Of a stretch of 64,000 nucleotides of DNA, positions 4,604 to 61,700 are shown piece after piece. The position numbers and the translations under genes are program-made. Each line of letters opens with the position of its first letter. The stretch's first letter is position 1. The stretch is from Crossaster papposus. Lineage: Eukaryota; Echinodermata; Asteroidea; Velatida; Solasteridae. The notes under the pieces were generated by a model that was not told the DNA's origin, ran no database searches, and saw nothing but the letters and a program-made list of their open reading frames with translations. The stretch spans positions 1-64,000 of the forward strand of contig JBAIAA010000409.1 of the NCBI GenBank assembly GCA_037893245.1, given 5' to 3'.

Positions 4604-5186
4604 ATATATAATTGACGCTACTGGAGTCATACTCGACTCGAGGCGTTGTGACTAATAGTTTTTCAAATTCTCGAAATTCGTCTCAGCCATCCAGCCCGAT
4701 CCTGGGAAGCACGAACAGCCTGATCGTGCTTAAGGCCGATGGCGTTGAGGTCGTCTATAATCTGTAAGAGGTAGGTGCGACGCAGGCCTCCTCCCCGTCT
4801 AAACGGCTCTGAAGGTTGATTTTTAGGGTTTAGGAAGACAGCGAGTGTCACCTCAGGTCTCCGTAGTGCGTGACCTATTAGGCGAAGGCGACTTCTCAGC
4901 AGGGTGGTTGTGGCAGGTGCTACGCAGGTACGAGCATACAAGTCGACGTTGGATAGCCGTACTGGGAAGTGCACACCAAGACAGTAGCGTAGGAGAGCGC
5001 GGTGGGTAGCGTCAAGATGCCTGGCCATAGTTTCAGTGATCGCAAGGGCATCACAACTGTATAATAAAACTGTCTCAACTGTGGACTTAAACAGGTGCAC
5101 CTTGGCGCTATCACTGGCTGCTCCGTCCCACACAAGTGTACATTTTCGTGCTGCAACCCAAGCCAGCTGTCGTCGCCGCTGAATGG
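4604..5186 (-). mobile_element. 5'-truncated LINE inserted in the tandem array
   Basis: The unit sequence breaks at 4603 and resumes after 5186. The 8-bp direct repeat CGGTCAAT at 4596-4603 and 5187-5194 is the target-site duplication. The insert reads on the minus strand, ends at its 3' side in an AT-rich tail (TATATATT), and lacks the 5' portion, as expected of aborted target-primed reverse transcription. It lies in only one of the array copies, so it arrived after the array began to expand. Confidence 0.85.
4663..5186 (-). pseudogene. C-terminal part of a LINE reverse-transcriptase ORF
   Basis: About 174 codons are open to a stop at 4663. The reading has the pattern seen after the RT catalytic core of many non-LTR elements: RRRQLAW, then LFKSTVETVLLYSCDAL, then a spaced leucine and arginine pattern with RLRLIGHALRRPE, and a basic tail ending GWLRRISRI. 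The catalytic palm motifs are absent because the 5' part was never inserted. I cannot fix the clade; a Jockey/CR1/RTE-type LINE is likely. It is a fragment with no expected function. Confidence 0.75.
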
Positions 5187-5862
5187 CGGTCAATGTGTTC
5201 AGTCATAGGTCCGTACCCCTGAATTGCTTAGTCAACACCACTTTAATTTTTGTTCTCCATTTTCCCCTTACCACCAATGCAGACGTACGTTCTGTATTTT
5301 TCTTGATTTACTTTAAAGGGGGAGGGGGGGAGGGGGGGGGGGGTGGTGGAGTAATGAAAGGGTTACTTCATTCTTCTACATTGGAGCTATTACTCCAGTT
5401 TTCAAACTTAAGTTACATCGATTTGAAACAATGTTGACCGGTAGTCGAATGGCCGAGTGGTTAGGCTCCTCGTTTGCGGGGTTTAATCGCCTGGGTTCTC
5501 GTCCTGGCCGATGTTTTTTTTTTGGCAGTTTTAACGCGCGAAATTTCGCAATCTTATCTTTAAAAGATTTAAATTATAGTCTTCAAATACCAACCGGAGT
5601 TAGCTCAACGGCTTAATTCGCCAGGGTGACGAGTCCTATATGGGAGTCGGTCAATGTGTTCAGTCATAGGTCCGTACCCCTGAATTGCTTAGTCAACACC
5701 ACTTTACTTTTTGTTCTTCATTTTTCTCTTACCACCAATGCAGACGTACGTTCTGTTTTTTTCTTGATTTACTTATTAAAAAAAAAAGGGGGGGGGGGTG
5801 GAGCAATGAAAGGGTTACTTCATTCTTCTACACTGGAGCTATTACTCCAGTTTTCAAACATC

Positions 5863-17689: not shown

Positions 17690-18020
17690 ATGTACGATAC
17701 ACTATTGGTTATTGCTTGAATTATTATGAATGGGTGGATTTTTGAATTTTGTTTTATAATAAATATCGTTTAACTGACCTGTCAGAAGTTTTACAATCAT
17801 GGATATTGAGAAAAGCAAGAAAAACAGCGTTCGTTTTCAACCGGAGTCAGGCAGTTGTTTTTATGTTGTTCTTGTTTTTTTCGCGATCGTCGTCAGGCAA
17901 TCGTGAATTTAGCTTCTACAATTCAATTTTTCAGAACAATTACAGGATATCTAGCACAATCATTTTGCTGGATGCCTACAATTATTATTTACTTTTAAAT
18001 AAGTAAGATATTTTCAAATA
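17690..18020 (+). mobile_element. MITE-B, right-truncated
   Basis: It follows the previous copy directly, sharing its TTAA. The left TIR is diverged (ATGTACGATACACTA) and the right end is lost after AAGTAAGATATTTTC. Confidence 0.75.
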
Positions 18021-21717: not shown

Positions 21718-21864
21718 CTACGTGTTCTGCCACTTTGTGAGGCTGGTCGGGCCCAGCTGTTTCCAGTCGTCTTTGGTGATGCACAAGTTGTCAAAGGCAG
21801 ACAAGGTGCTGAGTACTGTTCCTCCGTAATACGCCGAATGGTAGCGCTCTGGTGATGCGTGGAC
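21718..21864 (-). CDS. PH-actin gene, last exon and stop
   Basis: 147 bases with TAG at 21718-21720. ASPERYHSAYYGGTVLSTLS matches [20 protein letters not shown], and CITKDDWKQLGPTSL matches WISKQEYDESGPSIV. The end is WQNT, unlike the KCF of conventional actin. Confidence 0.94.
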   Translation of the reverse strand, partial: VHASPERYHSAYYGGTVLSTLSAFDNLCITKDDWKQLGPTSLTKWQNT

Positions 21865-24800
21865 CTACGGACGAGTGTATACACAAAACAAATAGGCGAT
21901 TGTGTAGTTACGGTACAAGCCCATCTCTAGTTTTGATCAAATTTAGAGTCAAGGGTGATGTTTATCATTCCAAAATTACTTTATCAACCTAAATTTATAA
22001 ATACCTGGGATAGTTTAGGCATTCCTATTGGTCGAGAGCCTGTCACGTGGCCAGTATTAAACGGACGATAAAGACATGGCTGGAAGTGTTTAAAACCAGC
22101 TGGCAACAAAACACTGTCACGCAAGTCGCATTATACCCGTCCCCAGGGCTCACTTTATTTCCAACCGTACCTCGTCTCCAATAGTAAGAGCGGGTAGTGT
22201 TGGGCGCTTACAGCTCGACACCCTGGGAACGAGGTTGCCCTGGGAACGAGGTTGTGTAGAGCGACAGAGGCGGGAACATGTCATTTGACACACACAGAAT
22301 GCCGAAACACTGAAATTTACTTGCGACAATTTTTCGGCTCGGGTAATTATCAGCACCCAGACTCCAAGCGGTATTAAACAGAGTGATTAAAACCTCTCGA
22401 ACACACATTTATTCCCTTAGTAAAATATTCTCAATGCTAATGATAGAAGGATGAAATAACTAAGTGAGCACACGTGCAGCGCAGAAAAACACTTGCGCAG
22501 CTAGCAGCATGTCAACCAGCATTGCAAAGTTTGGCAAAATGCTTAACGTTTACTATGGTAAAATGTCAATCGTAACATTTTGTTTAAATAAAACATGTAA
22601 GCATAACAATTTGCTTAGCACAAAAAATGTGTATTTCACACTTGTCTCTATAAAGCAAAAACCAACTAAACACCAGTTACCTGAAAATGTTGTTTGTAAC
22701 CCTGTTTTTGCCAAGGCAGAATTTTCATGCTAAGCAGATTTGTGTGCTTATGTTTTATGAAATTAGCCCCAGGTAACTGTAGGGGTGCACCAGTACCCTG
22801 AAGGAGTGCGAATGCACAGTTCTCATTTTGACGTCATTGCTCTTCTTTTTCCACGTTGCTTATTAATTTCACACACAAACTAAAAGTGTGTTTATGGACG
22901 AAGGGGTGCCATGACCTCGTGGTCTGGAGCATTGAATTTGTAATCTTTAGGTAAAGCTGCAGGTTGTGGGTTCGAGTCCGGCCTGGGACTACGGTGTGTG
23001 TGCCCTTGGGCAAGGCACTTTGTCACTCATTGCTTCTCTCCACCCAGGAGTAAATGGGTACCTGTGAGGACAGAGATGGTTATTAGAGAGGTTTCGCCTG
23101 CGAACGGGTACGGTTAGCTTAAAGGATACGTCATCAATTTTTGCAAACATATGACGTCACAGCTCTTCACTATCCGCTAACCGTGTACAAGGCACGGATA
23201 TCTCGCTCGCTACACGTGAATATAAAACGCGTACGGATAGCTAAACGTACGCGTACCCGTTCGTGTGCGAAACCTCTCTAATGTGGTTGATTTAGCTGCT
23301 TTGTGCCGAAATGGCAGCATCGAGCTGTATACTCCCCAGGGAGCTGAGATGGTATTTGGATTGTTTCATGGGCCCAGTTACCGGGGTAATAATGTTAAGC
23401 GCTTTGAGACTTTGGTGATAAAGCGCTATATAAGCACCGCACATTATTATTATAAGGGGTAGGGCAAGCGAATGAGAGGCAGACCCACCTTGACTGGAGA
23501 GCTCTTGGGTAACATTCTGACGAGCTCACTCCGGAGTCTCTCAGCCAAACCTGGTAGCAAGGTTGTCCCTCCACACAGATACACAGACCTGCAAATATCC
23601 ATAACTTACATTCATTAATGAGCCAGTACGATATTTCAACTGTGCATACTGTGCGCACACAAAAATGGGTCACACGTTGTACGCAAAAGGACACCACACA
23701 ATGCTTGTGTGTTAATCAGAGTGGGCGTCAACGTAACAGAGCGTAACATCACGTCAATGATTTTATCACAAATGTGACCCAACCCGACAAAATGAGTCGC
23801 AAGTCGCCAGAACTACTTTTGAGTAATATACCATTTAACACTGTCCGACACCCTTCCACCCAAACTGTACAATAAGGTGTCAACATGAGTGATACAACAA
23901 ACTGAAGAGCAAATGATGTGCTTTCAATTGCATGTGGAAAAACTCCTGAAAATACCTGAAAAATTGTCCTTCAGACTAATTTTAAGGGATTTGATCACAA
24001 CCACAAATTTTGCACTGCAAATGGGACGTGATCTAATATGCAAATTAGACGCATGCGCATCAGTGTTATTCAAACAGCTTCTCTTCTTCTCTCGTATGGA
24101 CCGAAGTCCGGATTGACAGCTTTAGTTCGAGAGGTCTTTTTTCTTTTAGCCGGATCACCACGAGAAGGTAGCTGTCTTGATCCTCCAGAAACACCGGGGC
24201 AAACCACTTCTCTTAGCGATAAGTTTTTCTGGGTTCTTTTATGTGCATTACACAACACACGGGACCTCCAGCTTTACGTCCCATCCGAAGGACGAAGCAA
24301 TAGTGGTTTAATTGCCTTGCTTAAGGACACACGTGTCGACACCGGGACTCGAACTCACGCTCTGCGGAACCGAAACCGAGTTCTTAACCGCCCGGCCACG
24401 ACACTCATTCAAACAGCTATTCCCAGGAAACTCGCTTGCAAAGCTGTGATACACGGAGGATGTCAACATAGACCACCGCCGTGATGCTCTAGCTCATTCA
24501 CGCGAACCAGGCTGCGGACACCAGCAGAACTCATGATGCACCCTCAAACTATTATCCCTGAGCCTCCATGTTTAACACTGGGGACAACACACTTCTCGTT
24601 AAACATGGATCAAATAAGAAAATCCCCCATATAATGCATTATGGCATGTCATCAGCTGGATATCTATGGCTGACCATCAGCTCAAATAGCCAATAAGGCT
24701 CTCAACTCCTCCTTAACTTACATAGGTTGTATTTTCTCGGACATTTTGTGTGAACTTTTACTTCGTAGCACCATCGAAAAATATAAATACGCGTGAAAAG

Positions 24801-27800
24801 ACGAGTGCGGCCGGTGGCAATGCATTCGGTCAAAGGTTATCTGTTTGTTTGTTGCTAACAACTACAGCGTGGGATGCTGCGTGTACGCACTCATCCAATC
24901 AGCGGTTACACGGGTCGTACTTAAACACAGAAGCGTCCCTACTACCGCTTTTAACACGTGTACTTCTCTACAAGGATCGAGAGCTTTCAACCCGCCTCCC
25001 AAGCAAAGTTAGTTTTGACACGGATTGAGCGCTCTATGGGTCGATGCCGTGTTGAAATGTTGTAGTGTGAAAAGGTCAGTCTAGTTTACACGTGTCGGAC
25101 CCGTGTATAACATGGACATTTTGCGTGTGCGAAAAGGCTTTTTGAATTTGGTTCAAGTTGTCAATCTATTAAAACTAATGCACGGTTCTTGCCACACATG
25201 TAAATGTATATGGAGCGAAATACAGTACCCTCTGGAGACTTGAACACAATGGGGAAAATGGGAGTGAAAAGGTCTCCAAAGGTTAATTTCTATAGATGAA
25301 TAGGTCTCCATTAGGAATTTCACAAATTAGATTTTTGGATTGTACCTATAAATTACTCAAAAACTAGGGTTAGGATGTGGGTTAGGGTTAGTGTTTGGGT
25401 TAGGGTATAATATAGAGTATACTGGGTCGAAATTTCAACCCAGGAAAATAATTGTGGTTAAAATGGGAGCCTTTTGAAAAACGTGCTCGACTTTCCAACC
25501 ATTTTGTACACGAGAACAAAGCCATGTCGCCACAGTGATACAAAAACGCGAATATTTGAACCAATACATACAACCTACTGTGTCTCTCTCACTATGCCAT
25601 TCACAATGTTCTTATCGGTGCTTACCTGCACATTTGTTTGCGTACGTCATTGCTGCAGGCCTGGATGGCGTTGTATACCAATGTGTGCAAACCGGGATGG
25701 TCTTTACCCCAGACCTCTGGATGGAATAAACCCTCTGTGCTACGGAACCGAGAGTAGTCTAGCTTGATAGAGCTGAAGAGAGAAATTATGAAATAAGAGC
25801 TGTAGTCACGTTATCCATAAGTCCATAAGCAATTTTACTAGCCATTACCAAGTATGTTTAAAACCGGCTCATGGGACTGAACATTGTTAACCAGTTAGCG
25901 CAGGATTATTTTAACATCACCGAGCCGACGCGCGGGATGATTTTTTATGAAACTCGATCTGAGGCGGGTTCAGGCCGCCAGTACCCTCATTAGAATGACT
26001 CGACTCAACTCGAGTGAAGGCTAATAAGACACGAGCCCCCAAAATAAGAGCAAAACTTTGCGAAAAGTAAGGGAGAGTGGAGGACAGCAACCAAGTCCCA
26101 AGATGGTGTAGAATAAGCCTCGCCTACAAAAGATTTGACTTGCGACTGAATTAATTGTGAGAATTTGGCTAAAAACTCAGGTGTACGGCAGAAAATAATT
26201 TCAATGCACGGACACCTACGTGTAGCATGTTGTCTACAGGTATGCATCTATACACAATTACGAACAGTAACATAGGATGACAATAACTGGTTCTGAACTA
26301 AATCTGGCAGCAAGATTTTTTAATTTTTTTCCCAGCTCTGCAATTAAAAGACCTTTCATCTGTAAGCTTCAGTGACCTTGGCTTTAGTGACCTTTGACAT
26401 TTCGGTGACCTTCAATTTAAACATTGAACACATACCCTGGTCCATTAGGAATGTCATATTTCTCCACGTCGATGTAGGTGCTGCAGAGTTCAGGGTCTAG
26501 GGAGCAGAACTTGAGTTCAGCATGATAGTCCTGAGCTACGAAGCAGGCCTGTTGGTAAATAACAAACAGCAGTTACGAGTACATTTATAATAAAAGAGCA
26601 TGTACAAGTTGATGGCTCAATAAAAAAATGCAGACAAGCATATTCAACGGACAAGCATACATCCAATACACTGCGGCAAAAACTACTTATACCAATTGAT
26701 GGACAATTTCTTGAAGAAAAATGACACCAAGATATCTGTATTTGTGCCAGTGAGTTTTAAATCAAAACCCTATTTTGTGAAGTGAAGTCAGAGATTCTTT
26801 CGCACCGAGAAATATTTATAAATCATGTCATGTTAAATTCGCTGTCGCCATTTAATTTATTTTCACGGTGCAAAAATACCTTCACCATACCAAAATGCTT
26901 CACAAAATAGGGTCTGGAGCAGAAACTACTGGCCCAAATCAAGATATCTTGGTATCATTTTTCTTGTAGAATAATTCTTTGTCCATTTAGTTTTGGCCTC
27001 AGGGTAGTGGTATGCTTGTTCGTTTTACATGTATATCCAACAGCCGGGTTGCCGATAGTTCAGTTTTTCAGTGTCTGAGCATTGTAAAAAGCCTGATCAT
27101 GAGCTCAACTCATATTGGTACATGTGTATGTGTTGGGCACGATCGGTCGATCTGCACTTTTACTTGATCAAGCAGAAATGCACTTGCGCGATCGGGTAGG
27201 AAATCTGCGACTTTACTTTCTGTTGATCTGCGCTATTGGTCAATCTTGCAGGAGTGCTTTGTAAAAGAAATTAAAAATTTTGTGTACCGGATCGACTGAT
27301 CACGCCAGTGCATTTCTGCACAATCAAGTCCAAAATATGCAATCTGGTCAGCATCCAGCCTGGCCCGTGGGCTCATTATTAGAATAAGTCAACTAATCCA
27401 GAGATTAAGTCCAGACTGCCAGAATGCCAGAGTGGCATTACATGAATTATGTGTATGGGCAATAATGATTTCTTAGCTAAGTGGGCCGATAGTTATGTCC
27501 AACCTGACAAAAAAGCACCAACGCTTTTATAAAGGGTATTGACTAAGAACTAAACTGTGATCAAATACCGTACATCCATAGCAGTACGATAAGTCGGTGT
27601 TATTAAAGATTAGGCCAAATAAAAAAAAAAAAAAGTTGGTGATCATCCCCGCCCGACTCTCCGAACAGGCCCCGAGCCCCCGACCCAAATTATTTTTTCA
27701 TTTTTTATTTTTCGAAAAACCGCCGTAAAAAAACGAAGAAAACGCCATAAAACGTGAAACCCCATTCAAATTTTGCGGGCTAGGTTTGACCCACGCCACC

Positions 27801-30800
27801 AACGTGCTTCTAGCGAGTACGTGCGCATGCGCTGTAGCCACACTTGCTGATTGCCATTGTCACTGCGCAATATAGACACTGATCTCTACAAATTCATCAG
27901 TGGCCATAGACCATATTGCGAATAGCAAAATATCACAAGAGGGCGCAGCTGCCCAAAGCCCCATTTTACACCTATGATGCATTGCGGTTCGGATTAGCAA
28001 TAAACCTTATTGTGTTGGCCAGGCATTCCAACAGGCATTGTTCTCGGCTTTTGTTCGTTTTGAGGTCGTGCAGTGATTTATCATGTCGTTGATCGTGATG
28101 ACAATACTAAATAATGCATTGTGCGTACAACATATCTGATTTATAGTTCATTCATTTTTTTGGCCTTAGAGAACTTGTAACAGGTATCTTGGTTAGCTTG
28201 CAAGAACCTCTCCTGCCAATGCACAATGTTATGATGAAGGACTGACGTGAGCAGTACCCATAGATAATGAGCTCATAGATCAGGGGAATACACCTACGTA
28301 CAGGAACTGAACTGTCGGGTAACCGATGGAAATCACTGACAGTTGGGTTGATATATGCTTCCTATAAGAAGCCTTGTTATTTGGTTTGTTTTATAATTAG
28401 CTTCCTCGGAAAAACCCAGGTTCAACCGTCAAAGCTTGCTGCTTGCGTAGCTCTGACGTCATTTTGTGTAACATCCGTCATACGAGTCAGACCTGGGGCC
28501 AATTTCATGGAGCTGCTAAGCACAACAAAATGCTTAGCACAAAATAAATGGGCTCAGTAAAAACAGGTTACCAGCCAGAACTCCATGTGCTTTTCATGCT
28601 AAGTAAAACCAACCAATACACATCACCTGAAAATTTGATTTGTAACCCTGCTTTTTCCTAAGGAAACATTTTTATGCTAAGCATTTTGTTGGGTGCTTAG
28701 CAGCTCCATGAATTAGGCCCCTGGTAACAGTTTATGATGCTGACAATATGGTGTCATTAATGAGATTTCGCATGTGAATGAATATTACCTGTGCACATAC
28801 GTTTGTTTATGGTGTAAATCGAGGAGTTTCTTTTGTTCCTCTCAATAATTTCCTTTGTTTGTACTCTAACTTTTTCCAACGGCTCTCATTGGTTTTGTAC
28901 ACGAATTTCAATCGAGGACGTCCTCGATTCTAACCCTAACCCCAATTCACCTTCGTGTCGCCAGGCATGTATCCTCCATTTACACCATAAACAAACGCTT
29001 ACATGTATGTTTTACTTTTCACAACCGTAATCCACCTTTTCATTGTTTTTTTGCATTGTGTTCGCATTTCTTTGTGTTAGCATAACATTTTGAATGAATG
29101 CAGGAATACTTTGAAAGCAGAGAAACATTTGCTAGACTATTCCAAACAGTATAATGTACCGGTACACAAAATATGTATGTAAAATGTGTCCAGTATTGGA
29201 GGTGCTCAACTGACTATACAATGTCTTACTCTTTCCTTGAGGTATCTCGCAATGTACATCTCAATCTCTGTGAAGAACCTGTACCAAGAAAAATAAGAGA
29301 AAAATGGTAAACTTTACCAAAAAAATAGGTATATAGGGAAAAACAATGAACTATGATGTAGAAAGTAAATTCACTAAAGGGAGGGGGGGGGGGGGGGGGG
29401 GGGGTTCTGTACAAATTGCATGAGTCGCAAGCTGTCATATGAACTGGGACAGGGGTATCATTGATCATCATAACCTGTCACCTGTGACATCATTGTGAAT
29501 TGACTGGTGACAGATTTTTGCCAGACTTGTGCTGCGACTTAAATATAACGTGTGACGGGGCTTGTGACGGGGCTTGTGACGGGGGCTTGTGACGGGGCTT
29601 GTGACGGGGCTTGTGACGGGGCTTGTGACGGGGCTTGTGACGGGGCTTGTGACGGGGGCTTGTGACGGGGGCTTGTGACGGGGGCTTGTGACGGGGGCTT
29701 GTGACGGGGGCTTGTGACGGGGGCTTGTGACGGGGGCTTGTGACGGGGGCTTGTGACGGGGGCTTGTGACGGGGGGCTTGTGACGGGGGGCTTGTGACGG
29801 GGGCTTGTGACGGGGGCTTGGGACGGGGGCTTGGGACGGGGCTTGGGACGGGGCTTTATTGGGACGGGACTTAATTAGGACGGGACTTAATTGGGACGGG
29901 ACTTAATTGGGACGGGACTTAATTGGGACGGGACTTAATTGGGACGGGACTTAATTGGGATGGGACTTAATTGGGATGGGACTTAATTGGGATGGGACTT
30001 AATTAGGATGGGACCTAATTAGGATGGGACCTAATTAGGATGACACTTAATTGGGATGACACTTAATTGGGACGAACTTGCAACCTGACTTGCGATCCCC
30101 GGACTTGCAATCCGCTAGACCTGCAATCCGCTAGACCTGCAATCCGCAAGACCTGCAATCCGCCAGACTTGCAATCCAACTTGAAATTGGATTTGTGATT
30201 TTACTTGTATCTAAATTGTGATTGAATTAAGATCTGGCCAAGGATTGACTGCGAAATACAACTCCAGAATAAAAAATAAAAAAACGATTGATATTTCAAC
30301 ATTGATCCGCCTTTAACATGTTAACAGCCCGGAAACATTACAACTTCCTCCTGGAAATGGATCATCCGCTGCTCAACCTTTAGCACAAGATGGTCTGAAT
30401 TACAAGAGGTTGTCTTGACGTCATGAGGAAATGAGTTGGACAAATATCAAACAAAAAGATCACTGCACAATTAACTGCCGCTTTTGTAAAGAACAATATA
30501 GTAATATTGATTTGCTGCATCAAATAAGTAATTTGTACTTGACTTAAAAAAAACAAAAAATGTCTGGATCTAAAAATATACCTTTGACATGTTGGAAAGT
30601 ACATGTACAGGCTTGGTACATGTAATTTGTTATTTCAAGCTGGAAAAGGATGCCAAGCCAGTGGTAATTAGTATTGCATAAAATAATGAAAGAGAACAAC
30701 TAAGTTTTCAGTTATTTCGCATTATGTACAGATCGAGTTAAGTTATCTAACACCATGCTCTAAAAATTCCTCAATCTAAAATAAAATAACTACGTTTAAA

Positions 30801-54800: not shown

Positions 54801-57800
54801 AGTCAAAATTGTCTAAAAAAATTAGTTTTTCTGGTCTGATCGTCCTGAAAAATTGGGAATTGATTGTTGGGGATTTAAGGCGCTTTCACACTTTCACACA
54901 AGTCTCGGGGTTGGAACCGGTTCCAACCCCGAGATTTTTTCAACCCTTTTCACACTACTAAAATTTCAACCCGGTTCCAACCCGGGTAGCAGGCTCTAGC
55001 CGGATCGAAATCAACCCTGGTGGGGACCAGGGTTGAAAATCTCAACCCGGATTGAAATTGCAATTTTCGGCGTGAACCGTGTCAAAAATGATAGTGTGAA
55101 CCGCCTCGAGTTGAGTTTGCTTACCGCTGATCCGTGTTGAGTTGTGGCGCGAAATCCTACGGAAATCGGACACGCGGTACAAAGGTCAATAAACAATCAG
55201 TTGTGCGATCGACGTGGCACGTACATGTACATGTATGAGTACGAGTGAGGGTGTACATTTACATTTATTTGTATGGTATGTACCCCCGGTACATGTACTG
55301 GCACGTTACGCATGTTTTGCATGCGCTAGCACACACGTGGTTCTTCACCAAACCCCAACACAACAGCAACAACACGCACTTACTCGGACATTTCTCTTCA
55401 ATTTTGTTCGGAACAAAAATGGGTCTCAAAAAGTCCGACAATAAAGCTGAAAGACCGACATGAAACTTGGAAGGACAAAGAAGTAAAGGCCATGTTGACG
55501 ATTAGGTCGGACGATTAGGTCGGACGATTAGGTCGGACGATGTGGTTGAGTCGCAACTGGACGGCACGACAAGAGATAAGGTGTTCACGAAAATGTCTGA
55601 GGATCTCGAAGGCCAGGGAATTCACGACAAAACGCCGAGCCAGTGCCGCATAAATTAACAAATTTGAGGTGGGATTATAAGCATTGTGGGATCGGGAAAT
55701 CATCACAGCGCGCCTTTTTGAATGTGATCCGTGTTGAGAAATGTGTAGTGTGAATGCACGGCGGCCCTAGCCAGATTGAACGTTACACGGTTCACTAGCG
55801 GCTGGTTCGCGGCATGAACAGTGTGAACGTTGCGTCTCCATGATCCGTGTCGAAAACAACCCATGCTGAACCAGGTTGGAACTGGGTTGGTTTCAACACG
55901 GTTCGAAACGGAGATAGTGTGAAAACGCCTATAGTCTTAAAAAAACCATATAATCTAAAAACCGACCACCCCTTCAAATTTTGACTTTGACTGGCCGTAC
56001 TGGGAAATCACTCCGTGCGACTTTACGCTCATTTTGTGATGACAGGTCACATATGACCTTTAGGCTCAGTAGGTTACAAGTAATGTGCCACCTTGGCCTT
56101 CTAAACCTTTCCTTCCAGCTAATTCTCCTCGGCCAATTGGCTCATCACATTCAGCAGAGGATAGCCTAACAGCTTGTCATTTCTTTCCCTCCCCCCAGGG
56201 AGTCTAGGGTGTCAAGTAACTTGCAGCCTTAATGACAGGAAATCCACTCCTAGACAACTGAACAAGGCAGTCATTCAAGGGTTGCTTGAAGGGGCATTCC
56301 GCCAGGAAATGCCACCACTTAATTGTTTTATATTTGTTTTACATGTATTTCAAAACGCCTACATTATAGTTGAAGTAAAACCAACCTAATGTCTTACTGT
56401 TCCCAAGAAAAGAAGGAAAAAACAAAAAACGAACCACCAAACGGATGTTTACATCTAGGGCCAATTTCATAGAGCTGCTAAGCACAAAAATTTGCTTAGC
56501 ACAAAAAAGTCTTGCTCATTAAAAACAGGTTACCAGCCAAAATTCTACTGGTTTTACACGCTAATCCCCAAACCAGCTGAATAACTACCATAAACAATGA
56601 AGATCACGTAACATTTTTGTTTTTGCCAAGGATAAATGTTCATGCTAAGCAAATTTTTGTGTTTAGCAGCTCTATGAAATTGGCCCCTAACGCGGCCCAG
56701 GGAGAAAGACTCAAAAAGATAAAAAAAAGATAAGAAAAATGAGGCAGAGAGAAAATTAATAGAGACGAAGAACTGCAACGAGAGAGACTGCGTGCGCGGC
56801 GGGAACATATTGTAGGCTAGGTTCGGGTGGTCCGTTCTTGACACGCGAAACTCGTTCTTGCGTCAAAGGGCACCCAAGAACATTGCACATGGAACAGAAT
56901 CCTACTATTTATATTGGATGAGTATATGATTTATACACGCTAGACACCGGAACTTATAAAGTGACAGAGTGGGCCATGCTGGCTTGTCATACTGTCTTGT
57001 CATACTGTCTTGTCATACTGTCTTGTCATACTGTCTTGTCATACTGTCTTGTCATACTGTCTTAATGTCATACTGTCTTGTCATACTGTCTTGTCATACT
57101 GTCTTGTCGTACTGTCTTGTCGTACTGTCTTGTCGTACTGTCTTGTCGTACTGTCTTGTCGTACTGTCTTGTCGTACTGTCTTGTCATACTGTCTTGTCA
57201 TACTGTCTTGTCATACTGTCTTGTCGTACTGTCTTGTCGTACTGTCTTGTCATACTGTCTTGTCATACTGTCTTGTCATACTGTCTTGTCATACTGTCTT
57301 GTCATACTGGCTTGTCATACTGTCTTGTCATACTGTCTTGTCTGACTGTCTTGTCATACCGTAGGGTCTTTTTTGGCACTGTCTGCATCATGCGGTGGTT
57401 GAGTGACTCACCGAGTCTGTGACCTCAATGCATTTGTTGCTGATCTCCGTAATACGGCCGCCCACAAGCTGGATGTAGCCCAGAGACTTCTTGGCTTTGT
57501 GGTCCTGTAAGGGATCGGTTAAAGAGAAGCTGATGGCTGATGTGATCTTTAATAAAGATGAACTACGTGTATCTGTGGTACCGGTACATTTTGAAGTTTC
57601 ATAATGTTTGTATTGATTACGAGTGCAGTGCCCGTTCGAAATGTGTCTGTTCAGAATAGGCAAATTGTGTGTCTCCGATCCTCCAACATGGCAGTATAGA
57701 GCGAAGTGCCCGTTTAAAATGTGCAGCAGTGTGTGGCGGGCCCCCAATATTAAAAGATTCATGAAAACTAAGAGTGAGTTAAGTTTAATAAATTTATATT

Positions 57801-60800
57801 ACTATAAACTTTGACCTTTGCATACATTTTTGTGTCAAATAAATTTGGTTTGGGAAATAAAACAGCAATGTTTCCCCCCACTTTCCCAACGAAAAAACAG
57901 CCGACCATACCACGCGACCTGCTACATGTACGTCATGGTAAGAACAAATGCTTCTCAGCACCTAGCCTGCAGGCTAGGCGAGCGTCATGCGATACGGACG
58001 TACAGTGTACATTATACGTGTACACAATACACACACTCGTGCACCCATGTCGCGATCGATCGTCAACCGGCTAGACTGTGCAGGGTATAGCCACGCTATA
58101 TTCTTACCAAGACGTCATCTTTTGTGGGCAGGGGCACGGCGCATATTGCTTTTCATTTTAGGATCACGATTAATGAGCAAACATAAACAAATATGAAGTT
58201 TTTGCAGTTGTTAAGTATTCAGTGTTATTAAAGAGTATATTTCGTCATATTAAAGTTTTGAATTTTAGGTACCATTTTTTGCAGCATTTTTGAAAACTGC
58301 TGATCCATACAACTTTAAACTTGACATTGCACATTCTTGGGTCCTGAGCAATACACCCGCCGCGTTTCAACTTCATCATAAAGTGCCAGTGCCCGGTTAT
58401 GGAAATAATTGAATTACGGACAGAAACATTACACAGACACCGTGAAATTACCCATGAGGAAATCCCTCTGCCCTCCCTAAAATCCAATATCCAATACAAC
58501 CTTGAACCCTTTACTGTACCTAACCAAACAGGACCCGGCAAAACTAATGGAATTTGGTAGGCCCGGGATTGTTTGAGTTAATTTTTAATTTGGTGAAAAC
58601 CCCATCTTGATACGACTTTCCGGTTAAATAAATTAGCACATGTTGAGTATAGACATCGAAAAGTAGAAGAACAAAAACAAAAAATTGAATTTTAAGTTAC
58701 AGTATTGATTTTTTTTGTTTTTGTGGCAGAGTATAGATTCAATAATAAATAAAAAAACAAATTTGGGTAAATTAAGTAAGAAATAGGTTTTTTAGAGGCA
58801 TTTTCTTTCTGCGCCTGCACAGCCAGAAATCTGAAAAGCGCGAGTTCAAATCTCCGTCTGTATGTAAACATATGACGTCATTCTGGGAGACGGTGGCACT
58901 GCATACATATATGTACAGTATACAGTGCCACCGTCTCCCAGAATGACGTCATTTGACGGAGATTTGAACTCGCGCTTTTTAGATTTCTGGCTGTGCAGGT
59001 GCAGAAAGAAAATGCCTCTAAAAAACGTATTTCTTACTTAATTTACCCAAATTGTTTTTGTACATGTATTTATTATTTTTTCTATACTCTGCCACAAAAA
59101 CAAAAGAATCGAAGAAAAAAAAACCTTTGAGTTCCCCTTTAAATACAAACCTCATAGTAGAAGAGGTTCCCCTGTTTGGACCTGAAGTAACGTTTCTTCC
59201 ATTTCTTGATGAAGGAGGCCCGTCTTCTGCCCATGGGTAGCTTCTCCATGTACCCCTCCATGCTGACCTCCCCAGCCCGACATAGGGGACTCTCGCTGTC
59301 AGGCTGGTGCCGCTGGATGTTGGCATACAGGTCCTGGACTATGGGAAGCTAATCAGAAAGATGCAAGATCATCGGGTACCAGGTCGTATGTACAGAGGGT
59401 AACATGCATGAACAGTATCCTGTGAAAAGTTGTATCAAGGTAGGCTTTTAAGCAGACCCAGGTGAAAATAGAAATGGTAGAAACGTCAGTTACTGAGTAG
59501 GAACATTAGTTCCTGAGTAGGAACATTAGTTCCTGAGTAGGAACAAGGACTTTGGAAGTTTGGAGGACAGAAAGTAGTTTTCGTTGATGCGATTTTGTAT
59601 CACTGTGGAGACATGGCTTTGTTCTCGTGTACAAAATGGTTAGAAAGTCAAGGAAGTTTTTTCAAAATGCTCACGTTTTTCAAAATGCTCCCATTTTAAC
59701 CACAATTATTTTCCTGGGTTGAAATTTCGACCCAATACCCTATATTATACCCTAACCCTAACCCAAACACTAACCCTAACCCACATTCTAACCCTAGTTT
59801 TTGAGTAATTTAAGTACAATCCAAAAATCTAATTCGTGAAATTCCTAATGGAGACCTATATTTATATTCATCTATAGAAATTACCCTTTGGAGACCTTTT
59901 CACTCTCATTGTCCCCATTGTGTTCACGTCTCCAGAGAGTACCGTATTTCGCACCACACTCATCCATGTCGATACAGCATCATAAGCAATTAGCATGTTC
60001 TGTACTCACAACACTTGTGCTCCACCTTAAGCTCTTGGAAATTCACATGTACCGTACATGGACCGTATACAGTACAGTTGCAGTACTCCTGTGCCCAAAT
60101 GTACACGATACACGGTAGTAACCAACAGATAATGTATCACCAACCAATAATGTCACACAAATTGACCGATACTGTATCAATAGATAGGTTTCGCATACAA
60201 ACGGATACGCGTAGGCGTACGTTTAGCTGTCCGTACGCGTTTTATACTTACGTGTAGCGAGTGAGATATCCGTGCCTTGTACACGGTTAGCGGATAGTCG
60301 AGTAACTGTGTCGTCATAAGTCCGCAAAAATTGATGACGTATCCGTTATAAGCTATACCGTATCCGTTTGCAGGCGAAACCTCTCTACTAACGGATAATG
60401 TAACAACAAATGAACAGTAGTGTAGTAACTTTCACTACACTCTCAGTTAATTTCTGTTACCTAATCGGTCAGGACCGATAATGTTTTTAACAATTTTAAA
60501 CAAAAGTAGAACAGTAAGAATACTTGAAAGCACTTAAACTACTTGAACTAGTCACAGAAGCAATTTACATAATCCCATTAATTTGTTTGGAAGTTTTTTT
60601 ATTTTGCAAATATTTCCTTCCCTTAGAAATTTGTTCGCACTTGGAAACTTTGTGAAACAGGACCCGTTTCGAAAAATTGATGTGTACGTAATTAATGATT
60701 TGTGTATTTCAAAAAGTTTCTGGCTTACCGGATTCCATTTCTTGACATTATCCCTCTCTTCAAAGCAAATAACCTCGCTGGTGTCGTTGACACCAAATAT

Positions 60801-61700
60801 GATGGGCCCGTCATATTTGTACACGACCTCCTCGTGATGGTTGGAGGACAAGCTTCCCCGGATGCTGCCGTCCAGAATCTCGCCAGGATCTGAGAAGTCA
60901 TCCGCGGGCGGAAACTCGTAAATTGCCATGTCATCCATGGCGGGAAGCGAGGAATTCAAGACGTGATTAGTCTTCTTCTTGCCGAGGGGCACCTCCGTGT
61001 TGATGTACATGGATGAGACCGCCATGTAGTTCTGACCGGACTCCGGCCGGTTCTGGTGGTGGCGCCGGGGCACGCGCAACACCTCTTCGTACTCTGATTG
61101 GTCCAGGCTGTGTGTCAGGTGACTGTTGTGGTGGAGAGAGTTGGCGCGGAGGTTGGCAGTGGTGGGGCCATTCTGATCCTTGACCTGCCGGCCCCTGCAT
61201 CTCATCGGCGTTTCGTAACTGCCGTCGTCCTCCACCACCGAGCCGTTCAGGCTGTACATGTACTCCGGTTCCGGCACGTCCGAGTAGTCGCCACTCTCGA
61301 TGCGGAATACCTCCTTAGAGGCTGCCGCCTCATGACGGCGGCCTTCATGGTTCGCCTGGGGTTCCTCAGTCTCGACCAGGAGGTCCTCCTTGCTCTTTCG
61401 GATGGCTTCTTGCATGGCTTCCACCTGGGCGGCCAGGCTCTGGACAAAGTCCCTGCAGGCTTCTAGATCGGTGGGTGGGGACCCTTCTGGCAGCACTGCT
61501 GTTACCACCTCTTCGCTGATTGATTCTAGCTCGGCGAAGGTCTGTGTGTCGCGCTTGTGGCCCAGGCAGCTGGAGCATTCCGAGGAGTTCTCTGAGTAGT
61601 CCGAGTCTTGCTGGTCCGTCAGGTCATCGGAGCTCACCTCTGAGCTCAGCTCCGAACTGGTCTCAGACTTCTTCTCGTTTTCCCATTCGACTGTCATTAA
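21718..61700 (-). CDS. PH domain-actin-like fusion protein, at least 13 coding exons
   Basis: Join, in transcript order: 61700-60729, 59348-59151, 57504-57412, 53854-53726, 49162-48941, 47791-47669, 41065-40957, 36874-36739, 29278-29230, 26548-26436, 25772-25626, 23588-23489, 21864-21718. The 2,538 bases stay in frame at every GT-AG junction and give 844 residues from the ATG at 61697. Residues 1-323 are acidic, serine- and tyrosine-rich, with a likely coiled coil at about 78-108. Residues ~352-446 are a PH domain (MEGYMEKLP, KKWKKRYF, closing FEDWKIIL). Residues 464-844 follow actin end to end (381 against about 375). The adenine loop GGTT (769-772) and the Gln of the active site (599) are kept, but the phosphate loops read DVGGC and NIGERI in place of DNGSG and DSGDG, and the DNase-binding loop is short. 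Likely a membrane-directed actin-related protein with weak or no ATP hydrolysis (inference). I do not recognise a named family. More 5' exons may lie beyond the window. Confidence 0.92.
22608..22772. mobile_element. MITE-C fragment (GCTTAGCACAAAA hairpin family)
   Basis: It carries GCTTAGCACAAAA, GGTTTGTAACCCTG-like and TTCATGCTAAGCA blocks and ends ATGAAATTAGCCCC. The left TIR is missing. Confidence 0.65.
22905..23462 (+). mobile_element. tRNA-derived SINE split by a TIR element
   Basis: The head has box A-like TGACCTCGTGG and box B GGTTCGAGTCC; the body has CCTTGGGCAAGGCAC and CTCCACCCAGGAGTAAATGG. The 3' half resumes after the insertion with AAGCGCTTTGAGACTTTGG and AAGCGCTATATAAG, ending in an ATT-rich tail. 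The insertion occupies 23086-23278. Confidence 0.8.
23086..23278. mobile_element. TIR element (GAGAGGTTTCGC), nested in a SINE
   Basis: Ends GAGAGGTTTCGC and GCGAAACCTCTC, flanked by TA on both sides. The interior carries GACGTCA and a CG-rich GTACGCGTACCCG block. The element recurs inverted at 60182-60388. Confidence 0.82.
23489..23588 (-). CDS. PH-actin gene, adenine-binding loop exon
   Basis: 100 bases. SVYLCGGTTLLPGLAERL matches NTVLSGGTTMYPGIADRM, with the nucleotide-binding GGTT intact at 769-772. It ends SSPVK at donor GTGGGT. Confidence 0.95.
24105..24406 (-). mobile_element. tRNA-derived SINE
   Basis: On the minus strand the head has box A TGGCCGGGCGG and box B GAGTTCGAGTCCC (24342-24356). 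The body has CCTTAAGCAAGGCAATTAA, GTCCTTCGGATGGGACGTA and GGTCCCGTGTG, a pattern common in marine invertebrate SINEs. The forward reading frame at 24038-24484 is a shadow of it. Confidence 0.78.
25222..25560. repeat. Dispersed repeat with interstitial telomere-like motifs
   Basis: TTAGGGTTAGTGTTTGGG and related blocks sit at about 25368-25405, inside a ~340-bp repeat that recurs inverted at 59585-59948. Both copies share ACCTCTGGAGAC-like and TGTACACGAGAACAAAGCC-like ends, so the telomere-like part belongs to the element. Confidence 0.7.
25626..25772 (-). CDS. PH-actin gene, subdomain 3
   Basis: 147 bases. RFRSTEGLFHPEVWGKDHPG matches [20 protein letters not shown], and YNAIQACSNDVRKQMC matches FNSIMKCDVDIRKDLY. 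Confidence 0.94.
25891..25990 (-). mobile_element. MITE-A, truncated copy
   Basis: TTAA at 25887-25890 precedes CCAGTTAGCGC; the match runs to CGGGTTCAGGCCGCC and then stops. Confidence 0.75.
26436..26548 (-). CDS. PH-actin gene, subdomain 4 to 3
   Basis: 113 bases. ACFVAQDYHAELKFC matches LCYVALDFEQEM, and EKYDIPNGP matches KSYELPDGQ. The donor is GTATGT. Confidence 0.93.
26650..27020. repeat. Foldback repeat in an intron
   Basis: GCATACATCCAATACACTG, GGACAATTTCTTG and CACCAAGATATCT on the left are mirrored by AGATATCTTGGTATC, AATTCTTTGTCC and GTAGTGGTATGC on the right; CCTATTTTGTGAAG faces CTTCACAAAATAGG inside. The arms are imperfect, about 140 bp each. Confidence 0.6.
28495..28722. mobile_element. 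MITE-C, full copy
   Basis: GGGGCCAATTTCATGGAGCT on the left is mirrored by AGCTCCATGAATTAGGCCCC on the right, with GCTTAGCACAA-type subterminal repeats. A non-coding hairpin element of about 228 bp. Confidence 0.8.
28803..28996. mobile_element. Small TIR element
   Basis: GTTTGTTTATGGTGTAAAT is mirrored by ATTTACACCATAAACAAAC, a perfect 19-bp terminal repeat around about 155 bases. Confidence 0.75.
29230..29278 (-). CDS. PH-actin gene, short subdomain 4 exon
   Basis: 49 bases: FFTEIEMYIARYLKER, matching the actin helix EREIVRDIKEK. The acceptor is CTTGGTACAG and the donor GTAAGA. Confidence 0.88.
29384..29404 (+). repeat. Poly-G tract
   Basis: An almost pure G run about 100 bases upstream, in transcript sense, of the short exon 29278-29230. 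Similar tracts occur in the array, at 11762-11778, and as poly-C at 53507-53527. Confidence 0.9.
29549..30195 (+). repeat. Graded minisatellite: three unit types in succession
   Basis: About 23 copies of CTTGTGACGGGG with growing G runs (29549-29820) pass through CTTGGGACGGGG into about 14 copies of a 16-bp ACTTAATTGGGACGGG unit (29860-30070). They then change to ACCTGCAATCCGCTAG-type units to about 30180. Neighbouring units differ by one or two bases, so the array shows stepwise drift. Confidence 0.9.
30800..31131 (+). mobile_element. MITE-B, right end decayed
   Basis: TTAA at 30796-30799, then AGGTAGGATGGTACACCA, and family blocks to TTGATATCTGCAAA. The right TIR is lost. The sequence from here to 32540 is AT-rich intron with no other feature I can support. 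Confidence 0.78.
32543..32961. mobile_element. MITE-D, full copy
   Basis: TIR TATGTGACCTGTCATCAC, continuing as AAAATGAGCGTAAAGTCG, with its inverse at the right end (36 bp, nearly perfect). A 23-base poly-A tract lies near 32815-32838. The second copy, at 54618-56055, is split by a Harbinger-like element. Confidence 0.85.
33198..33596. repeat. Long-armed foldback element
   Basis: Arms of about 140 bp (33198-33337 and 33457-33596) are inverted copies with about six differences. They begin AATAAGCCATTTGCGCGTGA and reach GCTATATCACGTGAT. The 120-base centre is unrelated to the arms. Confidence 0.85.
33620..34040 (-). repeat. Dispersed repeat (AATCCTGCAAA family), inverted copy
   Basis: TTGCAGGATTGAGG blocks and GGGTCATGTGTGCAGACCC are the inverse of the copy at 12100-12950. 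Confidence 0.6.
34053..34300. mobile_element. Imperfect TIR element
   Basis: TTATAGTCGATGTGCCTCTG on the left is mirrored by CAGAGGGCACATCGTCTATA on the right, and AAATGTGCCCG by CGGGCACATTT inside, over about 250 bp. Confidence 0.6.
34754..35204. mobile_element. Longer relative of MITE-A
   Basis: TTAA (34750-34753), CCAGTTCACGACGG, and at the right TACGGCGTGAACTGG before TTAA (35205-35208). At 451 bp it is twice the size of MITE-A, and most of the interior is different. It may be nearer to the source element; no transposase frame is visible. Confidence 0.75.
35430..35640 (+). mobile_element. MITE-A, right end lost
   Basis: TTAA at 35426-35429, CCAGTTCGCGCCGGATGACG, and a match to GGCTCGGCGATGTTA, where it stops before the right TIR. 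Confidence 0.8.
35895..36160 (+). mobile_element. tRNA-derived SINE, degenerate
   Basis: Box A-like TAGGCTAGTGGTTC and box B-like GGTTCGAACTGC are followed by GTCCTTGGGCATGCCAC and CTCCACCCAGAAGTATAAATG, as in the SINE at 22905. The head is partly duplicated. Confidence 0.65.
36287..36646 (+). mobile_element. MITE-B, full copy
   Basis: TTAA on both sides (36283-36286, 36647-36650), with left end GAGTAGGATACACCA and right end GGTGTATCCTACCT. It lies 92 bases from the exon at 36739. Confidence 0.85.
36739..36874 (-). CDS. PH-actin gene, second phosphate loop and subdomain 3
   Basis: 136 bases. NIGERIDVVPIVDGY replaces DSGDGVTHTVPIYEGY, so the catalytic-loop Asp (actin 154) is Asn. YRLPFGGRQITEHLRRLL matches LRLDLAGRDLTDYLMKIL, and TEGGYR matches TERGYS. 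Confidence 0.94.
37208..40770 (+). repeat. 44-bp satellite with CAGCTG and CACGTG in its unit; 660-bp higher-order period
   Basis: About 80 units of ACGATCAGCTGTATCATTGG, then TATCCACGTGAACTACCGTA and GCAG, fill an intron of the PH-actin gene. Nearly every unit keeps CAGCTG, and most keep CACGTG (variants AACGTG, ACATG, TTCACGTG). From 38440 a block of 15 units repeats at a 660-bp interval: landmarks at 38446, 39106 and 39766, and 38725 and 39385. The array ends sharply near 40770 with no coding frame. Confidence 0.95.
40957..41065 (-). CDS. PH-actin gene, actin segment with the conserved active-site Gln
   Basis: 109 bases. EKVVEMIFDRFNPEGVYLQE then QALMALYSYKATSGIV parallels [20 protein letters not shown] then QAVLSLYASGRTTGIV. 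Gln599 corresponds to actin Gln137. The donor is GTAGGT. Confidence 0.94.
41280..41830 (-). repeat. Dispersed repeat (GGTCGGTTCGGGTCGG)
   Basis: The inverse of the copy at 10378-11370, ending GGTCGGTTTGACCTGG, CCCAATCTGATGCACATCAT. Non-coding. Confidence 0.55.
42030..42150 (-). repeat. SINE-like fragments with box B motifs
   Basis: GGTTCGAGTTCCACCC and GGTTCCGGTTCCACCC on the minus strand look like two adjacent decayed tRNA-derived heads. Box A is not clear. Confidence 0.4.
42515..42749 (-). mobile_element. MITE-A, full copy
   Basis: CCAGTTCGCGCC-type left end after TCAA (a decayed TTAA) and right end GTCGCGCCAACTGG before TTAA. Confidence 0.83.
43196..43626. mobile_element. MITE-E, full copy (TATGTGACCTGGCACCAC)
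   Basis: The TIR TATGTGACCTGGCACCACG and its inverse enclose about 430 bases. The terminal TATGTGACCTG is shared with MITE-D, so the two families probably use related transposases. Confidence 0.82.
44014..44311 (-). mobile_element. MITE-B, minus orientation, abutting a MITE-A
   Basis: TTAA at 44010-44013, AGGTAGGATACACCA, ending TGTATCCTACC directly at TTAA 44312-44315, which is also the target site of the next element. Confidence 0.83.
44316..44549 (+). mobile_element. MITE-A, full copy
   Basis: CCAGTTCGCGCCGAATGACG to TCGGCGCGAACTGG, with TTAA on both sides (44312-44315, 44550-44553). Confidence 0.87.
44845..45094. mobile_element. MITE-C, full copy
   Basis: GGGGCCAATTTCATAGAGCT is mirrored by AGCTCTATGAAATTTGCCCC. 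The interior has GCTTAGCATGAAAA. Confidence 0.8.
45755..45970. mobile_element. MITE-C, full copy
   Basis: GGGGCCAATTTTATAAAGCT is mirrored by AGCTCTATGAAATTGGCC, with GCTTAAGCATAAAA inside. Confidence 0.78.
46148..46522 (+). mobile_element. MITE-B, full copy
   Basis: TTAA on both sides (46144-46147, 46523-46526), AGGTAGTATACACCA to AGTGTATCCTACCT. The reading frame at 46188-46394 is a shadow. Confidence 0.86.
46800..46920 (-). mobile_element. tRNA-derived SINE, truncated
   Basis: The minus strand shows AGGGCAAGATAGCTCAGTTA (box A) and GGTTCGATTCCCGCCTTG (box B), the same family as 10465 and 10760, with a deletion in the anticodon arm. Confidence 0.65.
46926..47130 (+). mobile_element. MITE-B 3' half
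   Basis: It matches the family from TTTGTTTTCAACCAGCGTC to AATGGTGTATCCTAC. The left half is missing, replaced by the SINE. Confidence 0.75.
47669..47791 (-). CDS. PH-actin gene, actin subdomain 1
   Basis: 41 codons in phase 0. MHTMEGFLDTAFTELGI corresponds to MEKIWHHTFYNELRV, and LMVIVPFHLGPKLT to LLTEAPLNPKANR. Confidence 0.93.
47880..48109 (+). mobile_element. MITE-A, full copy
   Basis: CCAGTTCGCGCCGATTGACG to CTGCGAACTGG with TTAA on both sides (47876-47879, 48110-48113). It lies 88 bases from the exon at 47791. Confidence 0.86.
48457..48879. mobile_element. MITE-E, left end shortened
   Basis: The left end TTTGTGACCACGAAATGAGC lacks part of the TIR; the right end is CATTTCGTGGTGCCAGGTCA. 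It stops about 60 bases from the exon at 48941, so the donor-side intron sequence is largely transposon-derived. Confidence 0.8.
48941..49162 (-). CDS. PH-actin gene, actin subdomains 1 and 2
   Basis: 74 codons in phase 0. HVAIIDVGGCSVRAG matches the actin start (VVDNGSGMCKAG), with the Ser-Gly phosphate loop altered. VFFPSMVA matches VFPSIVG. The DNase-binding loop is reduced to about TKHKDRVSYGYEAL. Confidence 0.94.
49223..49619. mobile_element. Kolobok-like MITE-F (TTAA, TIR AGGGATCGTATACG)
   Basis: A 397-bp element with ends AGGGATCGTATACGTTTGG and its inverse, the latter followed by TTAA (49620-49623) and the former preceded by TTAA (49219-49222). AGGG ends with TTAA duplication fit the Kolobok superfamily. 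Non-coding. Confidence 0.82.
49681..49878. mobile_element. piggyBac-like MITE (CCCCTTGACG)
   Basis: A 198-bp element, CCCCTTGACG to CGTCAAGGGG, with TTAA at 49677-49680 and 49879-49882. Confidence 0.82.
49882..51058. mobile_element. Harbinger-like non-autonomous element
   Basis: The left end AGGCCCAGTCACACCGGG is mirrored by CCCGGTGTGACTGAGGC, with TTA outside both ends (49879-49881 and 51059-51061). Three-base TWA targets and this kind of terminus fit PIF/Harbinger. It abuts the previous element, sharing its TTAA. It is 1.18 kb with no recognisable transposase; CACTGCGCTTACCGTCATG and similar stretches do not code for anything I know. Confidence 0.7.
51180..51380 (+). mobile_element. MITE-B left half
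   Basis: TTAA at 51176-51179, AGGTAGGATACACCA, and a match through TTTTCAACCGGCGTC to TTTTTTCGCGATTG; the right half is lost. Confidence 0.78.
52116..52604. mobile_element. hAT-like non-autonomous element with 8-bp target duplication
   Basis: CATAGAGCTATATTAAATTA is mirrored by TAATTTAATACAGCTCTATG, a TIR of about 29 bp, and the perfect direct repeat GGTCCACA flanks it (52108-52115, 52605-52612). 489 bp, non-coding. The 8-bp duplication points to hAT; P elements also make 8 bp. Confidence 0.85.
53188..53343. mobile_element. Short TIR element with CCGGAT repeats
   Basis: AAGTCCCACTGAAGCC on the left is mirrored by TTGGGACTGGGGCTT on the right, and the interior repeats CCGGATATG and CCCCGGAT in both directions. 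The superfamily is uncertain; Harbinger-like is possible. Confidence 0.55.
53726..53854 (-). CDS. PH-actin gene, PH C-terminal helix and linker
   Basis: 43 codons in phase 0. RGRVLLLRC is a late PH strand and LEFEDWKIILNAES is the closing helix with its invariant Trp (438). A Ser/Thr/Pro-containing linker follows (MTPKSPTPHTIRK). Confidence 0.93.
53943..54304 (+). mobile_element. MITE-B, left end rearranged
   Basis: AAAGGTACCAGTAGGATACC replaces the usual left TIR; the right end is GGTGTATCCTACCT before TTAA (54305-54308). It lies 88 bases from the exon at 53854. Confidence 0.8.
54878..55930 (+). mobile_element. Harbinger-like element nested in MITE-D, with a Myb/SANT-like remnant
   Basis: A 1,053-bp element whose ends AGGCGCTTTCACACT and AGTGTGAAAACGCCT are inverted repeats. 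It is flanked by TTA and ATA, a possible 3-bp TWA duplication (the uninterrupted copy reads TTTAGTC). The subterminal zones repeat GGTTCCAACCC and TTCAACCC motifs. It keeps one decayed gene (55461-55700) of the Myb/SANT-like kind that accompanies the transposase in PIF/Harbinger elements; no transposase is visible. Confidence 0.72.
55461..55700 (+). pseudogene. Remnant of a Harbinger Myb/SANT-like DNA-binding gene
   Basis: The plus strand reads ETWKDKEVKAMLTIRSDD, then after a 13-bp tandem triplication (GATTAGGTCGGAC, 55499-55537) VVESQLDGTTRDKVFTKMSE and DLEGQGIHDKTPSQCR, then after a frame change KLTNLRWDYK. This follows the trihelix/Myb-like pattern: W at the start, a T(R/K)..V(F/Y) block, QCR, then NL(R/K)..YK. 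The triplication inserts 26 bases and shifts the frame, and an in-frame stop follows, so the gene is broken. Inferred from pattern only. Confidence 0.6.
56458..56687. mobile_element. MITE-C, full copy
   Basis: GGGCCAATTTCATAGAGCTG is mirrored by CAGCTCTATGAAATTGGCCC; inside are GCTTAGCACAAAA and AGGTTACCAGCC. Confidence 0.82.
56984..57358 (+). repeat. 13-bp minisatellite (CATACTGTCTTGT)
   Basis: About 28 copies with two subtypes, CATAC and CGTAC, in blocks. Because 13 is not a multiple of 3, it stays open in all three forward frames as a serine/cysteine/leucine/valine repeat, which is not a gene. It ends about 54 bases from the exon at 57412. Confidence 0.93.
57412..57504 (-). CDS. PH-actin gene, PH domain exon 2
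   Basis: 31 codons in phase 0 (DHKAKKSLGYIQLVGGRI and onward to CIEVTDS), the central strands of the PH fold. The 13-bp minisatellite ends about 50 bases from its donor. Confidence 0.93.
57620..58440. repeat. Diverged dispersed repeat, related to 14044-14750
   Basis: GTGCCCGTTC, AAAATGTGCAGCAGTGTG and TGGGTCCTGAGCAATACACC appear in the same order as in carrier intron 4. Non-coding. Confidence 0.45.
58712..59107. repeat. Near-perfect palindrome (foldback), arms of about 190 bp
   Basis: The left arm from TTTTTGTGGCAGAGTATAG to TGGGAGACGGTGGCACTG (58712-58903) is matched in reverse by 58928-59107, with a few changes and a longer T run. The centre is about 24 bases (CATACATATATGTACAG). Each arm contains GACGTCA and AGATTTGAACTCGCGC. 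It ends about 44 bases from the exon at 59151. Confidence 0.9.
59151..59348 (-). CDS. PH-actin gene, PH domain exon 1
   Basis: 66 codons in phase 0, starting LPIVQDLYANIQRHQ. The PH domain begins near EVSMEGYMEKLPMG and continues through IKKWKKRYF to GNLFYYE. The basic run is where phosphoinositide headgroups bind in many PH domains. Confidence 0.93.
59585..59948. repeat. Dispersed repeat with telomere-like motifs, inverted copy
   Basis: CTAACCCTAACCCAAACAC and ACTAACCCTAACCC at about 59750-59785 lie in the inverse of the element at 25222-25560, with the same ends (GGAGACATGGCTTTG, GTCTCCAGAGAGTACC). Confidence 0.7.
60182..60388. mobile_element. TIR element (GAGAGGTTTCGC), inverted copy
   Basis: The left end ATAGGTTTCGC is slightly decayed and the right end is GCGAAACCTCTC followed by TA. 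The interior matches 23086-23278 in reverse (GTACGCGTTTTATA, TATCCGTGCCTTGTACACGG). Confidence 0.8.
60729..61700 (-). CDS. PH-actin gene, first visible coding exon (N-terminal region)
   Basis: The acceptor TTCTTCTTCCAG ends at 61701. The exon opens TTAATGACAG, so ATG at 61697 is either the true start in a spliced leader exon or an internal Met. It encodes 323 residues: Ser/Glu/Asp-rich 11-43, helical ~78-108 (LEACRDFVQSLAAQVEAMQ), then scattered tyrosines (138, 146, 148, 161, 203, 224, 231, 260, 293, 295), several in SH2-type contexts such as MYINTEV and EYEEV. It ends VKKWNP at donor GTAAGC. Confidence 0.88.

Follow-up and report, generated by a model that had tools for sequence, protein, structure and literature searches.

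Fusions of a whole actin fold to another signalling domain seem to be rare, and the nearest parallels met are filactin of Dictyostelium (PMC2441452) and Arp53D of Drosophila (PMC8291977). In filactin the actin domain lies behind a long N-terminal extension and remains close to conventional actin (PMC2441452). In Arp53D a divergent actin fold follows an N-terminal extension, described as a tail of ~40 mostly unstructured residues that directs the fold to special structures (PMC8291977). The terms 'PH domain' and 'pleckstrin' are absent from the main texts of both papers (PMC2441452; PMC8291977). The starfish protein presented here likewise carries its actin domain behind an N-terminal extension. 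Unlike Arp53D it has a PH domain in place of a short unstructured tail, and unlike that of filactin its actin domain has moved far from conventional actin.

A sequence-only reading of this locus knew of no named PH–actin family. The statement fits the open-access literature, in which no PH–actin fusion was recognised, and reaches no further than that. Two pattern searches concerned other parts of the living world and say nothing about animals. Six peptide patterns for relatives of the actin domain had no match in viral contigs, and seven pattern matches to the PH end plus actin in prokaryotic contigs yielded none that tblastn confirmed. Three prokaryotic actin-like matches in NCBIfam all lie far below their cut-offs; the best is syringactin (E 1.7e-12, 46.9 bits against a cut-off of 300).

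Gene model and N-terminus

The window, that is, the whole 64,000-nucleotide stretch of Crossaster papposus DNA that was analysed, holds thirteen minus-strand exons from 61700 to 21718, which were rebuilt independently and join into 2,535 bases comprising 844 codons and the TAG stop at the end of exon 13 (21718). Their coordinates agree with those of the sequence-only reading, which had joined thirteen exons in frame into 844 residues. The model was seeded by tblastn with actin as the query, and the other exons were placed from reading frames and splice sites; each of the five tblastn matches at E <0.001 lies on the minus strand and inside an exon of the model. AG/GT borders are present at 12 of 12 introns and the phases of the spliced model are consistent.

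Exon 1, 60729..61700, minus strand: codons 1-323, ATG at 61697; acidic, probably mostly disordered N-terminus with one predicted helix (78-109)
Exon 2, 59151..59348, minus strand: codons 324-389; linker and start of the PH domain, with the basic beta1-beta2 region
Exon 3, 57412..57504, minus strand: codons 390-420; middle of the PH domain
Exon 4, 53726..53854, minus strand: codons 421-463; end of the PH domain and linker of ~20 residues; phase-0 donor
Intron 4, 49163..53725, minus strand: PH-to-actin junction, 4,563 bp
Exon 5, 48941..49162, minus strand: codons 464-537; actin subdomains 1/2, phosphate loop 1 (DVGGCSVRAG), shortened D-loop
Exon 6, 47669..47791, minus strand: codons 538-578; actin subdomain 1
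Exon 7, 40957..41065, minus strand: codons 579-614; actin subdomains 1/3, Q137 equivalent kept
Exon 8, 36739..36874, minus strand: codons 615-659; phosphate loop 2, D154 replaced by N, H161 not kept
Exon 9, 29230..29278, minus strand: codons 660-676, 49 bp; actin subdomain 4; weakest exon call
Exon 10, 26436..26548, minus strand: codons 677-713; actin subdomain 4
Exon 11, 25626..25772, minus strand: codons 714-762; actin subdomains 4/3
Exon 12, 23489..23588, minus strand: codons 763-796; GGTT nucleotide loop, subdomain 3
Exon 13, 21718..21864, minus strand: codons 797-844 and TAG; C-terminal part of actin

The exon calls differ in firmness. The acceptor of exon 2 was selected to keep the frame, which an alternative AG 10 bases downstream breaks, and the donor of exon 5 (gtgcga) is weak. 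Exon 9 was chosen from 1,220 exon-and-phase candidates, narrowed to 14 by filtering for pyrimidines and for an actin-like pattern, and its fit to actin is partly a product of selection since the pattern itself resembles actin; its phases (2 in, 0 out) agree with the neighbouring exons. Upstream of exon 1 lies a good acceptor, ttcttcttccag, and because the frame is open across it at least one further 5' exon probably exists, in which case the true N-terminus may be longer than modelled. Exon GC ranges from 0.41 (exon 9) to 0.60 and GC3 over the whole reading frame is 0.69, against 0.41 for the window; the other introns besides intron 4 measure 663 to 7,460 bp. The many tandem repeats within the introns could point to a pseudogene or an assembly join, an explanation that we consider barely credible in the face of 844 codons free of frameshifts and premature stops, twelve AG/GT introns and the GC3 of 0.69.

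The N-terminus had been described as tyrosine-rich and disordered, and the two adjectives fared differently. Residues 1-350 contain 12 tyrosines (3.4%), an ordinary content given the usual value of ~3%. The region is instead dominated by acidic residues and serine (E 42, S 41, D 26; together 109 of 350) and has a net charge of -37. Single-sequence AlphaFold2 run on exon 1 alone agrees with disorder, with a mean pLDDT of 42.1, 262 of 323 residues below 50 and one confident helix at 78-109; the acidic N-terminus is probably disordered. Might the protein be a signalling adaptor that works through its PH domain and phospho-tyrosine sites, the actin fold being a protein-binding scaffold with no link to F-actin? 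Of three features tested, one exceeds shuffled sequences, namely tyrosines with a hydrophobic residue at +3 (n=7, P 0.012), and the strings YEEV, YINT and YANI resemble SH2 sites. Against this, the overall tyrosine content is unexceptional, neither tyrosines with an upstream acid nor YxN motifs are enriched over shuffles (P 0.15 and 0.12), and the barbed-cleft residues kept in the actin half hint at binding of actin or of its partners. We regard the adaptor as distinctly unlikely.

The PH domain and its junction with actin

Searched with Pfam, the joined translation matches PH (PF00169) at residues 351-442 (E 9.2e-10, 39.4 bits against a cut-off of 25.1, profile positions 1-100 of 105) and Actin (PF00022) at 465-836 (E 1.1e-61, 209.1 bits against 27, profile positions 6-403 of 410), both passing the curated cut-offs. 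The order PH then actin in one reading frame, read earlier from the letters, is therefore upheld by the joined exons and by Pfam. A PH_8 match overlaps the PH domain and stays below its own cut-off; apart from PH, PH_8 and Actin, no domain was found in the 844 residues at E up to 10. Filactin carries filamin-type repeats before its actin domain, and no filamin repeat was found here in the same Pfam search (E up to 10), so that the protein lacks the make-up of a filactin-type fusion. When exons were searched one at a time, exon 4 gave no match and exon 5 one below the cut-off, single exons being too short.

The PH region has 50 distinct PDB sequences as matches (E up to 10), and among the weakest some are not PH domains. 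The closest solved domains, similar in sequence to the one described here, belong to KIAA0053 (E 5.5e-6), which we take to be ARHGAP25, and to PLEKHA6, GRK2 and SKAP55, with E values from 5.5e-6 to 1e-3. We know of no actin domain in any of these four proteins. The main partners of some of the nearest solved PH domains are proteins, a point against a membrane role. PH domains that bind phosphoinositides have a basic motif, K-x(n)-[KR]-x-R, in beta1-beta2. The stretch K359...KKWKKRYF has this pattern, judged from its sequence, and because the domain carries such a phosphoinositide-type stretch, membrane recruitment through it is plausible.

Is the PH–actin protein the product of one gene or two? 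The junction proposed by the sequence-only reading, 53726 to 49162, stands: its 4,563-bp intron is in phase 0 with AG/GT borders, falls within the size range of the other introns of the gene and is not unusually long. The exon GC and GC3 values also speak for one gene. Read through its donor, exon 4 closes its frame after 19 codons. Exon 5 is preceded, right at its acceptor, by a stop codon, and for this reason the first actin exon needs an upstream exon; its first in-frame methionine comes after the phosphate loop. As a gene model, the fusion is real. Two adjacent genes on the same strand would divide it: one for a PH protein, finishing after exon 4, and one for a divergent actin-related protein, whose short first exon would sit inside intron 4. 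That intron does contain ten phase-0 stretches that open with ATG and run up to a donor-like GT, as well as five AATAAA/ATTAAA hexamers, and PH proteins and orphan Arps are, as a matter of general knowledge, common separately. However, the exon 4 donor and the exon 5 acceptor are both in phase 0, the actin exon is unable to start by itself, and chance ATG stretches and poly(A)-type hexamers would be expected in 4.5 kb. Two genes are less likely than one, and on its own account we hold the two-gene arrangement to be quite improbable; the PH and actin halves are likely to be joined in one transcript.

A divergent actin half

The actin fold had been called complete. As to its extent, from near the beginning to near the end of the profile, this holds, but the domain has lost catalytic residues and part of its D-loop. 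The domain was compared with a panel of ACTB and six Arps (ARP1, ARP2, ARP3, ACTL6A/ARP4, ARP6 and ACTR10), from which ARP5, ARP8 and the testis Arps were left out. ACTB, with which it shares a near-complete actin domain, obtains the top phmmer score (194 bits), followed by ARP1 (147), ARP2 (128), ARP3 (99), ACTL6A (87), ARP6 (67) and ACTR10 (45). Identity to ACTB is 32% (115 of 359 aligned residues). The PDB has 191 distinct sequences that match (E up to 1); among the best 60 of these, all labelled actin, the top matches are conventional actins (E 4.7e-58). In comparison with ACTB, the PH–actin protein adds a PH domain and a long N-terminus, exhibits D154N, does not keep H161 and has a shortened D-loop. 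The six Arps resemble it in having a divergent fold, and ACTL6A, ARP6 and ACTR10 also in having changed nucleotide sites, yet it scores higher with ACTB than with any of them. At 376-429 residues (full-length PDB matches), these Arps are moreover too short for a PH domain plus an actin fold. The tree of eight sequences has no well-supported inner branch (0 of 5), gives the PH–actin protein no supported place with any of the six and flags it as a long branch, which makes its actin half a divergent orphan relative to this panel.

The residues that form the catalytic and Mg site of actin are D11, Q137, D154 and H161. The first two are kept, D154 is replaced by N and H161 is not kept: the panel alignments and two of the three PDB alignments shown have a gap there, and the remaining PDB alignment has D. 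As a sequence, this is not the set of a functional ATPase. Further changes in ACTB numbering are S14G, G15C, D157E, G158R and K336Y, while G13, K213, E214, G301 and G302 are retained with D11 and Q137. D154 is kept in all six Arps. The loss of H161 is not special, because ACTL6A and ACTR10 also lack it, and Q137 is absent from ACTL6A, ARP6 and ACTR10. Seven positions of subdomain 2 (48-54) are missing, five of which belong to the D-loop set, and the D-loop and filament contacts expected of a polymerising actin are accordingly not intact. From the changed catalytic residues and the shortened D-loop we infer that ATP hydrolysis and normal polymerisation are impaired or lost. Nucleotide binding may persist, since the nucleotide-site set (12 of 28 residues identical to ACTB) is more conserved than background (P 0.043).

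Conservation of the filament faces was likewise compared with background, for sets of barbed- and pointed-face contacts. The barbed-face set is marginally above background (P 0.05-0.07), residues 23 and 25, both changed, having been dropped from the initial list in one test of the wider set. A 10-residue core of the barbed cleft gives P 0.004, an optimistic value as the core was picked after the residues had been seen. The pointed-face set is below background (P 0.005-0.01), and this low conservation comes from the D-loop, as without it P becomes 0.58. Each of the six control Arps likewise has a pointed face less conserved than background (P <0.0005 to 0.07). The barbed set exceeds background (P <0.05) in ACTL6A and ARP1, where the 10-residue core is also kept (P 0.009 and 0.026, respectively); neither result extends to ARP2, ARP3, ARP6 or ACTR10. 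These values hint, without proving it, that the barbed cleft remains in use.

A rival reading, in which the PH domain tethers an actin that has kept ATP binding and hydrolysis and enters filaments together with cellular actin, would account for the near-complete domain, for conventional actin as the nearest relative (194 bits against 147 for ARP1), for the retained residues D11, G13, Q137, K213, E214, G301 and G302 and for a nucleotide-site set above background. The conservation of that site and a pointed-face signal confined to the D-loop shift weight slightly towards such an actin. We nonetheless deem it improbable in view of D154N, the absent H161, the five further substitutions, the missing positions 48-54 and an identity of just 32%.

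A membrane-recruited pseudo-actin as proposed function

What are the implications of joining a PH domain to a degenerate relative of actin? We propose, with a probability of roughly 0.57, a membrane-recruited pseudo-actin: a modular, one-gene actin-related protein that would be targeted by its PH domain and offer an actin-shaped binding surface devoid of ATPase activity. Its single gene would encode three parts in sequence: a disordered, acidic N-terminus, then the PH domain and finally the divergent actin-like domain. The PH domain, by virtue of its basic beta1-beta2 motif, would probably bring the protein to a phosphoinositide-bearing membrane. There the actin-like domain, with its changed catalytic residues and shortened D-loop, would probably act without actin-like ATP hydrolysis or polymerisation, might still hold nucleotide and would present its surface to partners, the most likely of which are an actin filament end or actin-binding proteins engaged through the barbed-face cleft. 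Arps that act as docking or seeding subunits offer an analogy, as do Arps located by their own N-terminal extension, for which the tail of Arp53D, in the part of the report available, is the precedent (PMC8291977).

The combination of a PH domain with a degenerate actin relative is unusual and could hold that relative at cell membranes. If true, the fusion would link membrane lipid signalling and an actin-shaped surface in a single protein. We would place it among the actin-related proteins as a new variant. A more far-reaching version, tentative and in our estimate unlikely, is that it represents a previously undescribed branch of the animal actin family, a PH-placed pseudo-actin that seeds, anchors or caps filaments at phosphoinositide membranes by means of its kept barbed cleft and shortened D-loop.

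The remainder of the window offers several minor observations. Tandem arrays occupy three introns of the gene: a minisatellite with a 44-bp unit and ~81 copies (37222-40768, within intron 7), 13-bp (23.8 copies) and 16-bp (14.5 copies) arrays at 29551-30074 in intron 8, ~270 bp upstream of exon 9, and a 13-bp array of 29.4 copies (56975-57359) in intron 3 just downstream of exon 3. A mitochondrial carrier gene of several exons (10087-16515, plus strand) lies tail to tail with the PH–actin gene; three hand-joined pieces of it match Pfam Mito_carr, and we take it to be SLC25/UCP-like. A 179-codon open frame (4666-5202, minus strand) has no Pfam match at E 0.01 and is presumably the end of a retroelement reverse transcriptase. 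At 112-4561 a block of ~2.2 kb is apparently duplicated in tandem, translations of 112-1986 recurring near-identically in 2337-4212. Finally, a dispersed repeat whose translations share the core LTDLSE is found on both strands (11594-11965, 17746-18003 and 36335-36670, plus; 44169-44282, minus) and is probably a mobile element.
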